A stretch of DNA of 64,000 nt from Tropicimonas marinistellae (lineage in GTDB: Bacteria > Pseudomonadota > Alphaproteobacteria > Rhodobacterales > Rhodobacteraceae). The number at the start of each line of letters is the position of its first letter. Positions within the stretch are counted from its first letter, which is position 1. A program made the position numbers and the translations under genes. Below, piece after piece: positions 22,253-49,231 of this stretch. The DNA lies in NCBI RefSeq assembly GCF_001509585.1, contig NZ_LNCI01000003.1, forward strand, positions 372,001 through 436,000. Reading direction: 5' to 3'. The notes beneath the pieces are model-generated. The model made no database searches. It had not been told where the DNA came from and saw only the letters and a list, made by a program, of their open reading frames with translations.

Positions 22253-22671
22253 GCGACAAAACCATCAACCGATATACACTGCGGCAAGGGCCAACCACGC
22301 AGCGCAAACTTGCAGGTTTCGCCGAAAATCTCTCTCCCATTAAGCGACCAAATCCATCGCTATTTTTCGGGGAACCGCCACATTCTCTTCGAGGCTCGTC
22401 GTTGCGCGAAACAAGCGGGCCGATGAAAGCGCTAACACTGCTTTCACAAGCCGCCATCCCGTCGAATGAGACGACCATCGATCTAGTGGGATACCCCCAT
22501 ACTCCCCCCTCACGGAGCCATAAGAAATTATTATTATTTAGCTTACCACGTCTGTCAACGATTTCTGGCCTCGGCTTGGAGCACCGGCTCGGAAATGCCA
22601 ACGCGTTGGGCGACCTCGCCGAATCCACATTGGGACGTGCAAGTCACCCCGGGGAGGGTGGTATGCCTCTA
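22253..22671. promoter_or_regulatory. Likely promoter region of the priming-enzyme operon, 419 bases
   Basis: No gene is supported. A short strongly AT-rich island (around 22526-22545, TAAGAAATTATTATTATTTA) stands out and is flanked on one side by a C-rich segment at 22496-22509. AT-rich patches like this are typical upstream of horizontally acquired EPS genes and may be a target for nucleoid proteins. No exact -35/-10 assignment is made. Confidence 0.35.
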
Positions 22672-42144: not shown

Positions 42145-42990
42145 TTACTCTGACAACAATGGCATGACGAGCGAGAACAATTCAGCCTGCGAGGAGATCC
42201 CGCACTTGCGATAGAGCTGTTTGCGGAAAACCTTCACCGTTTGCGGGCTTATCCCCAAACGCAGCCCGATGGAAACGGAGCTGTGTCCGCGCAGGATGAG
42301 CAGGGCCACTTCCGATTGGCGTTGGCTGAGGGAGATGCCGTTGCGCACCACGAGTTCGTCGCGGAGTCGCCGAACGAGCGCGGCGTCCGTGTAGTCGCCG
42401 CTGGAGGAGAGGCCGGCCCATTGCTTTCTGATCAACCCGCAGGCAATCGCGCTCAGTCTTTGTGCAACCTCTAGGTCGCGAGGCGAAAAGACCCGTCCCG
42501 AACTCGAGTCGCGACCGAGGCAGATTTGAACGGAAACGCCATCTGCCGGGTAGGCCACATAGGCGACTTCGTCGATCAATGTCGTGCGGCGATAGTAGCT
42601 TGCGTAGTACTCGTTTCGCTGGAACTGGTCAGGCGCGAATTCACGCAAGCGATAGAGCCCCTCTGCAACCCTCGCCACATGTAACTCATGGAACGGGTCC
42701 AGAAGGTAAGCGCCTGAAATATAATCTGTTTCTATCTTCTCGTGGACCTGCGGCATGCGCGATTGCGTGAACAGGATCTCCGGGCGGCGGGTTTGGAAAT
42801 ACGCCAGCATTGTCGTATTATCGATCTCGAAACTACGGTGCAGCCAGCCATAGAGAGCGGCGGTAAAACCCTCTGTCCCAAGGGCTGAGATTGCGGCGCC
42901 GAGATGTGCCTCGGTTGCGTTTGGCAGGGCTCTGATAATACCCCCTTGGGGGTATATACCCCCCGTTGAGCCGGTCTTTAGCGTTATCAT
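42145..42990 (-). CDS. LuxR-family transcriptional regulator
   Basis: About 281 residues. The C-terminal 65 residues form a LuxR/GerE helix-turn-helix: [20 protein letters not shown], then [20 protein letters not shown]. The N-terminal 200 residues show no receiver-type phosphorylation site and no clear autoinducer-binding signature; a segment [20 protein letters not shown] is typical of a group of alphaproteobacterial LuxR regulators near polyamine and amine genes. The ATG at 42990 puts GGGGGTAT palindromes inside codons 10-18, which is unusual; a later non-ATG start is possible. It is divergent from the potABCD-like operon and likely regulates it. Confidence 0.82.
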
Positions 42991-43007
42991 TGTCAATCTG
43001 GGGGTAT
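42938..43007. promoter_or_regulatory. Clustered GGGGGTAT/ATACCCCC inverted repeats at the luxR-potA junction
   Basis: Four copies of an eight-base unit are visible: ATACCCCC at 42938-42945, GGGGGTAT at 42948-42955, ATACCCCC at 42956-42963 and GGGGGTAT at 43000-43007. The second and third make a perfect 16-base palindrome (42948-42963); the first and second make an inverted repeat with a two-base centre. The last copy is 17 bases before the potA ATG. This is the arrangement of an operator for a dimeric regulator, probably the divergently encoded LuxR-type protein. Confidence 0.7.
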
Positions 43008-43023
43008 GCCGCAAGAGGGGTCG

Positions 43024-44096
<1,073 letters not shown>

Positions 44097-44097
<1 letters not shown>

Positions 44098-45014
44098 TGG
44101 CCGCGGCCGCGCCGGCCGGCGCAACCCGATCCGAGATCTACCGTGGCAACGGCCCGCGGTTAATGCTGCCCGTCTGGGCTTTCATCGGCATTTTCCTGGT
44201 CCTCCCCGTATTGCTGATGGCGATCTATTCCTTCCTCACCAAGGAATTCCGTGGTGGAGTGATCTGGGAAATCACACTTGCGGCCTACGACCAGTTCTTC
44301 CTCGACCGGGGCCTTTTCGGCGACGAGCCGCCGCAGATCGAGTGGACGTATATCGGCATTTTCTGGCGTTCGATCTGGCAGGCGGGGCTCGCAACGTTTT
44401 TTTGCCTGCTGATCGGCTTCCCGACGGCTTGGTTCATCGCCACCCGGAATGCGGCGGTGCGGCCCGTATGGCTGTTTCTCGTCACCATTCCCTATTGGGT
44501 GAACCTGCTGATCCGCACGGTTTCGATGAAATTCCTGATCCGCGATACCGGCCCGCTCAACGAGTTCCTGCTCTGGCTTGGCGTGATCTCCGAGCCGTTG
44601 TCGCTCATCAACACAAACTTCGCTGTGCAGCTCGGGCTCTTCTACTCCTATCTGCCATTCATGGTCCTGCCGGTCTATGCCGCGGTTGAGCGCTACGATT
44701 TTGCGCTGTCGGAGGCCGCCGCAGACCTCTACGCGGACAACTGGACGACCCTGCGGCTCGTAATCCTGCCGGTGGTCAAGCCCGGTATCGTGGCGGGGTG
44801 CATTCTCGTTTTCGTTCCCTCGCTCGGCGCGTTTCTCGCACCCGACCTGCTCGGAGGCGCCAAGACCTTCATGATCGGATCGCTCATTGAGGAGCAGTTC
44901 AAGGGCGCGGCGGGAAACTGGCCCTTTGGGGCGGCAGCCGCGATGATCCTTTTGACCATCGTTTTGGGGGTGCTGCTGTTGCATGCCCGAGCGCAAGCGA
45001 AAGGGGGGCGGTGA
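44097..45014 (+). CDS. potB: Polyamine-type ABC transporter permease (PotB-like)
   Basis: A 305-residue permease with six main TM segments. The start overlaps the potA stop (TGATG). It has the inner-membrane permease EAA loop (ALSEAAADLYADNWTTLRLV ... LPVVKPGIVAG) that docks to the ATPase, and NLLIRTVSMKFLIRDTGPLN as in PotB proteins. It pairs with the PotC-like permease. Substrate is inferred from family and gene context, not from the sequence itself. Confidence 0.9.
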
Positions 45015-45234
45015 TGGGGTTCCGGCAGAATTTCGAACCGTGTCGGCTCGGCGCGCTGAAACGCCCGTTAACAAGCCCAAGGCGCCGGACGAACGCTTTG
45101 TCACCCATCCGCGCAACTCGGATGTTCGCAGGCTTTGGCTGCACTAAAGCGCCCCGTTCGGATGTCGCCGCGCCCCCTCGCGGCCAGGTGCTCGCCCGGC
45201 GCGTGGGTGGCGATCAGCCCGGGGGCCGTTGCCG

Positions 45235-46044
45235 ATGATCAAACCCCTCGATTTGCGCCGCTTCACGGGTTTCCGCGCCCTGACGATCCTCTGCCTCGTC
45301 GTGCTCTACGCGCCTCTGATCATCGTCGCGATCTACAGTTTCAACGACAGCACCTCGATCACCCGGTGGGGCGGCTTCTCGCTCAAGTGGTACGTGGATG
45401 TCTTCACCGGGCCCGATGCGCCGAAATTCCGCAACGCGGCAATCAATTCCTTCACCATCGCCATTGGTGCGGCGACCTGCGCCACTATCATCGCCACGGC
45501 TGCCGCCGTCGCCATGAACCGTGCCGGGCGCTTCAGGGGCAAGGTGGCGAGCCTTGCGCTCATCAACCTGCCGCTGATGGTGCCGGAGATCGTCACGGCC
45601 GTTGCCTCGCTGATCTTCTTCATCACCATCGGGTTCAAGACCGGGTTGATGACCATTTTCATTGCCCACCTCGTCTTCTGCATCCCGTTCGCCTATCTGC
45701 CGATTTCGGCGCGGATGCAATCTGTGCCGGATGTCTACGAACAGGCGGCGATGGATCTCTATGCGACACCCTGGGAAGCCTTCCGGCTGATCCTGCTGCC
45801 ACTGATGATCCCGGGCATTCTCTCGGGCTTCCTGCTCGCCTTCATCATCTCGCTCGACGATTTCCTGATCACGAACTTCGTCAAGGGTGCGGGGATCGAG
45901 ACCCTGCCCACGGCGATTTTCGGATCGGTCAAACAGGGCATCAAGCCCAACATCATGGCCATCTCGACGCTGCTTCTTGGCGTCTCGGTGGTCTTCGTCA
46001 CGCTCTCCTGGTTCATCGGCCGGGCGGGTCAATCAAAAAACTAA
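45235..46044 (+). CDS. potC: Polyamine-type ABC transporter permease (PotC-like)
   Basis: A 269-residue permease with six TM segments. ATG 45235 ([10 protein letters not shown]) is chosen over a TTG six bases earlier. Typical PotC features: [20 protein letters not shown], with the conserved Tyr-Ser-Phe-Asn segment, and the EAA loop [21 protein letters not shown] gap of 220 bases separates it from potB, which is unusual for this operon type. Forms the heterodimeric pore with PotB. Confidence 0.9.
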
Positions 46045-46072: not shown

Positions 46073-47098
46073 ATGAAAACCTTTCTGACCACCACGGCCC
46101 TCGCGCTCGCCCTTGCGGGCACTGCCCACGCCGAAGGAAAGCTCTCGATCTATCACTGGTTCGAGTACATCCCGCAAGAACTGCTCGACAAGTTCGCCGC
46201 GGAATACGACGTCGAGGTCACGATGGACACCTACGACAGCAACGAGGCGCTTCTGGCGGCGCTCAAGGCGGGCAAGCTTGGCGAATACGACGTCGCGGTG
46301 CCGGGTGACTACATGGTCAAGATCATGGGCGACGAGGGGATGCTGGACACGTTCGAGCCCTCCGAACTGTCGAACTTCGGCAATATCGAGGATCAGTGGC
46401 TCGACGTCGCCTTCGATCCCGGCCGCAAATCCTCCATCCCTTACCAGTGGGGCTCGACATCGTTTTCGGTTAACAAGGAGGTCTATGGCGGCGATCTCGA
46501 CAGCCTCGGGCTGATCTTCGAGCCGCCGGCGGAACTGAAGGGCAAGATCAACGTGCTCGACACCGCGGGCGAGACGCTGACGCTCGCCTCGCTTTACCTT
46601 GGCATCCCGCAATGCACCGCCGACCGCGACCAGCTCAAGGCGCTCAACGATCTGGTGCAGACCGCCAAGGCCGATTGGGCCTCCTTCGGCTCCGATGTCG
46701 CCAAGGACGTGCTGGTCTCCGGCGACGCTGCGGCCGGCATGATCTGGTCCGGCTTTTCGGCCAAGGCCCGTTCGGAAGGCGCGCCGATCGAGTATGTCTT
46801 CCCCAAGGAAGGCATGATCGTTTGGATGGACAACGTTGTCCTGCTGAAGGATGCCCCGAACCGCGACAACGCGCTGAAATTCATGAACTTCCTGCTGGAG
46901 CCCGAAAACGCGGCGGCCGTGACGAACTACGCCCAGTATACCGCAGGCGTGAAGGATGTCGCGCCATTGCTCGACCCGGAGGTCGCCAACTCGCCGGAAT
47001 CCAACCCGCCGGAAGGGGTGACCGGTGTCTTTGTGGAAGCCTGCCCGGAAGAGGTGCAGGTCATGTACGACGCGATCTGGACGAACCTGAAGAAGTGA
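46073..47098 (+). CDS. potD: Polyamine-type ABC transporter substrate-binding protein (PotD/PotF-like)
   Basis: A 341-residue periplasmic protein. ATG 46073 gives a 20-residue signal peptide (ALALAGTAHA cleavage). The mature chain starts GKLSIYHWFEYIPQELLDKF, close to PotD/PotF openings (YNWxxYIP), with DTYDSNEALLAALKAG and IPYQWGSTSF, the latter the region that contacts the ligand. It supplies the PotABC complex with a polyamine (putrescine or spermidine likely). The stop overlaps the GTG start of the nitrilase gene, so uptake and metabolism are co-translated. Confidence 0.9.
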   Translation: MKTFLTTTALALALAGTAHAEGKLSIYHWFEYIPQELLDKFAAEYDVEVTMDTYDSNEALLAALKAGKLGEYDVAVPGDYMVKIMGDEGMLDTFEPSELSNFGNIEDQWLDVAFDPGRKSSIPYQWGSTSFSVNKEVYGGDLDSLGLIFEPPAELKGKINVLDTAGETLTLASLYLGIPQCTADRDQLKALNDLVQTAKADWASFGSDVAKDVLVSGDAAAGMIWSGFSAKARSEGAPIEYVFPKEGMIVWMDNVVLLKDAPNRDNALKFMNFLLEPENAAAVTNYAQYTAGVKDVAPLLDPEVANSPESNPPEGVTGVFVEACPEEVQVMYDAIWTNLKK

Positions 47099-47862
47099 GC
47101 CTCACGCTCGCCCTCTACCAGGGGCCGCCCGCTATGGGCGACCCCGAGGCGGCGCTGCTTCGTCTCGGCCGCCAGCTTCGTGCTGCGACCGCGGCGGGCG
47201 CGCATATGCTGGTCGCGCCGGAACTGTTCCTGCCCGGATACAACCGGCCAGACCTGCATGGGCCTCTTGCGCAACTGCAAGGCGGAGAGTGGTGTGAGCG
47301 TCTTGCCGACATGGCGCGGCAAACGGGCTGTGCGGTGACCGTCGGCTGGGCCGAGCGGTCAGGGGATTCTGTTTACAACGCCGCTTCTGCATGGAGCAGG
47401 GACGGTCGCCTACTCGGGCACTACCGAAAAATCCAGCTCTTTGGCGCAATGGAGAAGGCGAGTTTCGCCGCTGGCCGCGACTATTGTCTGTTCGATCTCG
47501 ATGGCGTGCCGACCGGATTGTTGATCTGCTATGACGTGGAATTCGCTCCCCATGTGCGGGCACTGGCCGAACGCGGGGCGAAACTGTTGCTGGTGCCGAC
47601 GGCCAACCCTGCCGGATTTGACCATGTTTCGGAAACCTTCGTTCCGGCCCGTGCCGCCGAGATGGACATGACCATCGTTTACGCAAACTACTGCGGGTCC
47701 GAAGGCGAAATTGCCTTTGGCGGCCTGTCTCGGATCGTTGGCCCCGATGCCCGTACACTGGCCTGTGCCGACCGCTCAGAAGCGTTGCTTGTTGCCGCTC
47801 CCGCCCCATCTGTCGACCCGGCCTTGCGGTCCACCCAACTCACCGATTTTCGAAAGGTCTGA
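47095..47862 (+). CDS. Carbon-nitrogen hydrolase (nitrilase/amidase family)
   Basis: A 255-residue nitrilase-superfamily protein starting at a GTG that overlaps the potD stop (GTGA). The catalytic triad is visible: Glu43 in VAPELFLPGY, Lys112 in HYRKIQLFG and Cys145 in LLICYDVEF. The superfamily includes amidases, N-carbamoylputrescine amidase and omega-amidases. In this operon, hydrolysis of an amide or carbamoyl group on an imported amine is plausible, giving acid plus ammonia. The aminotransferase gene follows after four bases. Confidence 0.88.
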   Translation: MSLTLALYQGPPAMGDPEAALLRLGRQLRAATAAGAHMLVAPELFLPGYNRPDLHGPLAQLQGGEWCERLADMARQTGCAVTVGWAERSGDSVYNAASAWSRDGRLLGHYRKIQLFGAMEKASFAAGRDYCLFDLDGVPTGLLICYDVEFAPHVRALAERGAKLLLVPTANPAGFDHVSETFVPARAAEMDMTIVYANYCGSEGEIAFGGLSRIVGPDARTLACADRSEALLVAAPAPSVDPALRSTQLTDFRKV

Positions 47863-47866
47863 CGCA

Positions 47867-49231
47867 ATGTCTCTCGATCTCGACATGTCCACCGACGGCG
47901 TCCTCACCGCCGATACCCATCTCGTGCAATCCTTCGCGGACCTCAACGCACTCAAGCAGGACGGGGCGCGGACCGTCATTGTGGGTGCCGAAGGGGCCTA
48001 TGTTACCGACAGTGAGGGCAATCGCCTCATCGACGGCATCGGCGGGCTCTGGTGCGTCAATGCAGGTCACCGGCGGCCGGAGATCATCGCCGCCATCACC
48101 GAGCAACTGGAAACGCTCGACTACTACTCGACGTTTTACAATTTTACCCATCCGACAGCCGCCACGCTCGCCGCGAAACTGGCCGAACTCGCGCCCGGGC
48201 CGCTCAACAAGGTGCATTTCGGGAATTCCGGCTCGGTAGCCAACGACTCCGCGGTGCGTATCCTCCACCACTACTACAACCGCCTCGGCCAACCGAAGAA
48301 GAAGCAGGTCCTGAGCCGCCATGGCGCCTATCACGGCTCGACCCACCTCGCCATCGCGATGACCACGCCCGGCTATTCCGAGGGCTGGGACAAGGCCGAG
48401 GGGCTGGTGCACCATCTGCGTTGCCCGCACCATTGGCGCGAAGGCGCGGACATGAGCGAGGCGGAGTTCCTCGACGCGCTGATCGACGACGCGAAGGACA
48501 AGGTCGAGGAAATTGGCGCAGAGAATATCGCCTGTTTCATCGCCGAGCCCATCATGGGGGCAGGGGGCATCATCGTGCCGCCCGCAGGGTATCACGCTGC
48601 CATGGGCGCGCTCTGCCGCGACTACGAGATCAAGTACATCTCCGACGAGGTTGTGACGGCCTTCGGCCGGTTGGGTCATTTCTTTGCCTCGAAGGACGTG
48701 TTCGACGTCCAGCCAGACATCATCACCACCGCCAAGGGGCTCACCTCCGGTTACCAACCGCTCTCTGCCACGATCCTCAGCGACGAGATCCACGAAGTCA
48801 TCTCCGACGAAGGCGCGATGTTCCTGCACGGCATGACCTATTCCGGGCATCCGGCGGCCTCGGCGGCGGCACTTGCCAACATCGCGCTGATGGAGCGCGA
48901 GGGCATTCCGGAAAGGGTGCGCATAACCGGAAAACGGTTTGAGACAAACCTGTGCGCTCTTTCGGATCTGGAGATGGTGGGCGAGGTGCGCGGCAGCCAT
49001 TTCATGATGGGGATCGAATTCGTCCGCGACAAGGCGGCCAAGACTCCATTCGCATCCGAAGACCAGATTGGGCTCAAGGTGGCGCGCCAGGCGCAGAAAC
49101 GCGGACTGATCGCGCGGCCGCTGGGCAACATCCTCATTCTGTCGCCGACACTGGTAATGGACGAGACCATGATAGATTCCACCGCCGAAATCCTGCGCGA
49201 GAGTATTGTCGAGGTACAATCCGGGCTCTGA
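47867..49231 (+). CDS. Class III (omega) aminotransferase, putrescine/beta-alanine type
   Basis: A 454-residue PLP enzyme. Landmarks: GLWCVNAGHRRPEI, the YYSTFYNFTHP segment, FGNSGSVANDSAVRILHHYY (phosphate binding; relatives have SGSEANDTA), SRHGAYHGST, the Asp-containing ISDEVVTAFGRLG and Lys290 in TTAKGLTSGY as the Schiff-base lysine. It transfers the terminal amino group of a diamine or omega-amino acid to pyruvate or 2-oxoglutarate. SpuC-like putrescine-pyruvate transamination fits the polyamine transporter; beta-alanine or GABA are alternatives. Confidence 0.9.
   Translation: MSLDLDMSTDGVLTADTHLVQSFADLNALKQDGARTVIVGAEGAYVTDSEGNRLIDGIGGLWCVNAGHRRPEIIAAITEQLETLDYYSTFYNFTHPTAATLAAKLAELAPGPLNKVHFGNSGSVANDSAVRILHHYYNRLGQPKKKQVLSRHGAYHGSTHLAIAMTTPGYSEGWDKAEGLVHHLRCPHHWREGADMSEAEFLDALIDDAKDKVEEIGAENIACFIAEPIMGAGGIIVPPAGYHAAMGALCRDYEIKYISDEVVTAFGRLGHFFASKDVFDVQPDIITTAKGLTSGYQPLSATILSDEIHEVISDEGAMFLHGMTYSGHPAASAAALANIALMEREGIPERVRITGKRFETNLCALSDLEMVGEVRGSHFMMGIEFVRDKAAKTPFASEDQIGLKVARQAQKRGLIARPLGNILILSPTLVMDETMIDSTAEILRESIVEVQSGL

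Follow-up and report, generated by a model that had tools for sequence, protein, structure and literature searches.

The window analyzed here, a 64,000-nucleotide stretch of the Tropicimonas marinistellae genome, contains a minus-strand gene for a LuxR-type regulator (42145..42936, counted from the conserved start place, ATC at 42936-42934; an alternative start is ATG 42990) that diverges from a plus-strand gene, potA, encoding the ATPase of a polyamine-type ABC transporter (43024..44097; TIGR01187 above cut-off). potA is followed on the same strand by potB (44097-45014), potC (45229-46044), and a gene for a potD-like binding protein (about 46079 to 47098), all with Pfam/NCBIfam matches below the NCBIfam equivalog cut-offs, and then by genes for a carbon-nitrogen hydrolase (47101-47862) and a class III aminotransferase (47861-49231), each with an NCBIfam match below the equivalog cut-off.

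Between luxR and potA lies a cluster of four copies of the half-site GGGGGTAT, at 42938(-), 42948(+), 42956(-), and 43000(+), all inside 42938-43007. The two middle copies (H2 and H3) form GGGGGTATATACCCCC, a perfect 16-base palindrome at 42948-42963 that we presume to be a LuxR dimer site given its conservation beside luxR orthologues. The third half-site, H1 (42938..42945, -), is 2 bp off the palindrome and coincides in position with the ribosome-binding site that precedes luxR in relatives. The distal half-site, H4 (43000..43007, +), is 36 bp off the palindrome and directly upstream of potA. A sequence-only reading of the window had reported four half-site copies within 70 bases, one perfect palindrome among them, and both were confirmed. 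H4 at 43000 runs into ATG 43006, an earlier possible start of potA, but ATG 43024 behind AAGAGGGG looks the better start, and an equivalent start was seen by eye in several relatives. In the window as a whole GGGGGTAT occurs five times against 0.77 expected, a number reached in 0 of 100 shuffles; the isolated fifth copy (22491-22498, -) is within chance expectation. In T. marinistellae's own genome (5.4 Mb), GGGGGTATATACCCCC has no exact copy except that at 42948-42963.

The C-terminus of the regulator matched the GerE helix-turn-helix (PF00196) at 44.1 bits against a cut-off of 23.5; this was its sole Pfam match at E <= 0.001, and an autoinducer-binding domain was not recognised by Pfam. In a structure model with a mean pLDDT of 93.7, the sensor domain best matched the ligand-binding domain of VqsR (PDB 5xhx; Foldseek E 4.6e-10), to which it aligned over 163 residues with Z 20.0 and rmsd 2.5, while AHL receptors showed a similar fold at Z 13.6 and below. 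VqsR of Pseudomonas aeruginosa, described as a binder of the qscR promoter (PMC4211393), is thus the closest sensor-domain fold, yet it is 24% identical to the window's regulator. For the luxI family (PF00765), the genome gave a single match above cut-off, on contig C1, plus a weak match on C41. The window's own contig, C23, had none, which classes the regulator as a LuxR solo, and as judged from the model its sensor domain is VqsR-like.

Exact copies of GGGGGTATATACCCCC were found in 19 of 394 genomes of the family, as compared to 0 for the reversed control, and each of the 19 lay directly in front of a gene orthologous to this luxR (47-100% identity). A protein search (E <= 1e-40) of the same sampling placed the LuxR orthologue in 32 of the 394 genomes, including every genome with an exact site, an overlap with a hypergeometric probability of 3e-24 when genomes are treated as independent. 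Fourteen of the 19 exact-site loci also contained potA. Since the other five had no potA inside the 3-kb locus, the site tracks luxR rather than potA. When matched against RGGGGTATATACCCCY, the site was present at no fewer than 15 of 16 positions in 29 of 30 orthologue loci of the family sample, the one exception being L160, whose orthologue is 42% identical. A scan of named genomes yielded 429 relatives, and analysis was performed on the best 80 (48-81% identity). The sequence-only reading had made its case dependent on conservation of the palindromes upstream of orthologous pot operons; in these best 80 of 429, the palindrome was found at 13 or more of 16 positions in 80/80 loci, with potA as the divergent neighbour of luxR in 73. 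With the window added (81 rows), 41 rows had the exact palindrome and 32 had one change, although such rows are related by descent and the counts are therefore not independent events. Among 69 non-redundant rows, pairwise identity was 94% in the palindrome and 32% in the gap.

Read in luxR orientation, the common layout was ATACCCCY, a gap of 34-36 bp, RGGGGTATATACCCCY, 2 bp, RGRGGTAT, and the luxR start. The gap was 35 bp in 53 of the 81 rows, 36 bp in 19, and 34 bp in nine. H4 matched at 7 or more of 8 positions in 72 rows (0.155 expected from shuffles) and was weaker in the remaining nine, while the place of H1 read AGAGGTAT in 39 of 81. The first five letters of H1 are the ribosome-binding site of luxR; its TA was invariant and its last T was retained in 91% of rows, and a ribosome-binding site needs neither. 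H1 would combine a half-site with a ribosome-binding site, and the dual role of these bases is unusual and strongly conserved.

Among 11 distant homologue loci (26-38% identity), matches to the R/Y consensus peaked at 13/16 (two loci), with the others at 9-11. The 29 loci of the phylum sample gave a single near match, GGGGGTATATAACCCC, at 15/16 in L178 (44% identity); L180 of the same sample had a 14/16 match, but about 290 bp off. In the class sample, RGGGGTATATACCCCY occurred in 3 of 385 genomes, i.e., T. marinistellae itself, L176 (with a luxR-potA cassette), and L175 (without luxR or potA). A search of the own genome allowing up to three mismatches to RGGGGTATATACCCCY returned 21 sites as compared to 14 in the reversed control, which gives no sign of a genome-wide regulon, and none of the locus's 12 proteins was matched in the 3 kb at the second-best site (C37:467649, two mismatches). 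Upstream of the farther homologues L186, L180, and L181 lie related palindromes, among them GGTATATACC, GGGGATATATCCCC, and AAAAGGCATATGCCTTTT, which perhaps represent a common half-site theme.

In the 80 loci, some of which are incomplete, potA was matched in 77, potB in 76, potC in 75, potD in 72, the carbon-nitrogen hydrolase in 58, and the aminotransferase in 55. The first divergent gene was the hydrolase instead of potA in L069 and the aminotransferase in L103, L107, and L121. In L105, L109, and L120 it was a flavoprotein gene (L120:3825-5891 (-)). The best solved match of the L120 flavoprotein was histamine dehydrogenase, followed by trimethylamine dehydrogenase, and those of L105 and L109 were judged to be like it by eye only. 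Identification of these flavoproteins as trimethylamine dehydrogenase was rejected since, for L120, histamine dehydrogenase matches better. Genes for FGGY kinase, HAD, and SDR proteins, which lie on the luxR side of the window, were likewise rejected as members of the system (FGGY and HAD in 0/80 loci, SDR1 in 1/80). The neighbouring genes of the 80 loci point to a function in importing and degrading biogenic amines, one of which would be the putative ligand of the regulator.

Because of its conservation, its spacing, its co-occurrence with luxR, the gene neighbourhood, and the predicted fold, the cluster is very probably the operator of the adjacent LuxR, controlling both luxR and the divergent operon. 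An operator with autoregulation had been proposed in the sequence-only reading and is well supported by conservation and luxR co-occurrence; what follows on binding by this LuxR, on its ligand, on the promoters, and on activation versus repression is inferred. A LuxR dimer would occupy the palindrome RGGGGTATATACCCCY, with extra subunits or a second dimer on the flanking half-sites. At H1, the contact would be separated from the palindrome by 2 bp and would fall on the ribosome-binding site of luxR; at H4, it would precede potA, at a distance of 51-52 bp, or about five helical turns, to the matching half of the palindrome. Two divergent promoters appear, from the positions of -10-like hexamers in the 81 rows, to overlap within the 34-36 bp gap (42964..42999 in the window). 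On the potA strand, the best such hexamer begins 14-15 bp past the palindrome in 47 rows, and the window's candidates are TAGCGT (42979-42984) or TATCAT (42985-42990); on the luxR strand it begins 16-17 bp ahead of the palindrome in 22 rows. The palindrome would thereby cover the potA -35 region and the luxR transcript start, and H4 the reverse. When a frequency table of textbook values was used for scoring, the best -10 hexamers (4.4 for potA and 4.6 for luxR) were barely above those of shuffled gaps (4.0), although their places cluster, and a scan of 42850-43100 for consensus sigma-70 promoters found none. The faintness of these promoters counts against the operator reading, as does the behaviour of pseudomonad LuxR solos located by polyamine transporters, PjeR and PolR (subgroup E), whose reporters were not induced by putrescine, spermidine, or spermine (PMC8546723).

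The regulator would sense a biogenic amine that the products of the operon import or degrade, and would most likely activate the pot/catabolic operon while repressing its own gene; the chances that the pot operon is under activation are, in our estimate, about even. Somewhat short of even are the chances that the pot operon is under repression, i.e., that the regulator acts at the same operator to repress both promoters until the amine releases it. The centre of the palindrome lies about 35 bp ahead of the putative potA transcription start, and repressors often sit about 35 bp before transcription start, which fits such dual repression. However, the -35 hexamer is unrecognisable, suggesting that an activator is needed.

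A further question is whether operator and coding sequence overlap. The sequence-only reading drew attention to an ATG at 42990, which is indeed present on the minus strand and in frame with luxR, and which, if used, would place three half-sites inside the first codons of the gene. As a general feature this was not supported, since all 80 relatives have an in-frame start within 20 codons after H1 (ATG in 64, GTG in 13, and TTG in three); it may apply in this strain alone. The window is the sole row of 81 without ATG, GTG, or TTG in that interval, and the frame is open upstream. A precedent is found in PipR, whose predicted site overlaps its own 5' coding end (PMC4981722). However, nothing resembling a ribosome-binding site was seen by eye ahead of ATG 42990, the codon is upstream of the putative luxR -10, and the conserved start place holds ATC behind AAGGGGG. 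Furthermore, L003, a close relative on the same contig as L051 (Aliiruegeria lutimaris), lacks such a start, and its luxR begins past the palindrome. We therefore regard initiation at ATG 42990 as rather doubtful. An in-frame start codon inside the operator span was found in 27 of the 81 rows (window included) and is not rare. The ATC at 42936-42934 (-), which alignment to relatives puts at the usual luxR start place, could possibly be a non-AUG start, or could reflect a shifted start or early decay.

Binding of the site by another transcription factor is quite improbable; binding by this LuxR is deduced, which leaves some room for another protein, but all 19 exact family sites adjoin this luxR, and homologues below about 42% identity are without the site. 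That the repeats act instead as RNA, with hairpins in the luxR leader hiding or exposing the ribosome-binding site, is barely credible: pairing is possible between H2 and H3 and, in the window, along the full length of H3 and H1, the latter of which covers that site. However, H3 matches H1 at all eight places in just 11 of the 81 rows, 21 rows have A-C, which does not pair, at the outer positions of the palindrome, and H4 is retained too although it would be outside such a hairpin. With the cluster taken as the operator of the adjacent luxR, its parts can be combined into a single scheme, in which an amine-sensing regulator would bracket two overlapping divergent promoters at contacts about five helical turns apart and switch between them, with the ribosome-binding site of luxR incorporating a half-site and with ATC making this regulator a rare non-AUG-initiated one in this strain. 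The scheme is unlikely to hold in all of these parts together.

The 16-mer had been described as unlike any familiar LuxR-type box, and we agree; neither this motif nor an operator for this group of LuxR proteins was found described in the open-licence PMC literature. By gene neighbourhood, the window's LuxR can be likened to PjeR and PolR, as all are flanked by polyamine transport genes (potABCD-like in the window); in contrast to the present locus, the excerpted text of PMC8546723 gives no operator for them. Like PipR and OryR, LuxR solos that respond to plant signals, the window's LuxR solo adjoins an ABC-transporter operon, but the site described for those regulators is a 20-bp OryR-type inverted repeat and their response involves peptides or plant compounds (PMC4981722). 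The cluster represents a predicted operator for a widespread group of LuxR solos linked to polyamine uptake, in which signals and targets are difficult to identify. Since the motif is present across several genera, targets could be predicted and reporters built, and the histamine-dehydrogenase-like neighbour in some loci suggests candidate amines. Records that carry the motif are titled Salipiger, Roseibium, Thalassospira, Tabrizicola, and Kiloniellaceae, together with two titled uncultured Granulosicoccus (Gammaproteobacteria; L075 and L077). In these two the entire luxR-operator-pot cassette is present, which suggests either horizontal transfer or mislabelled assemblies.
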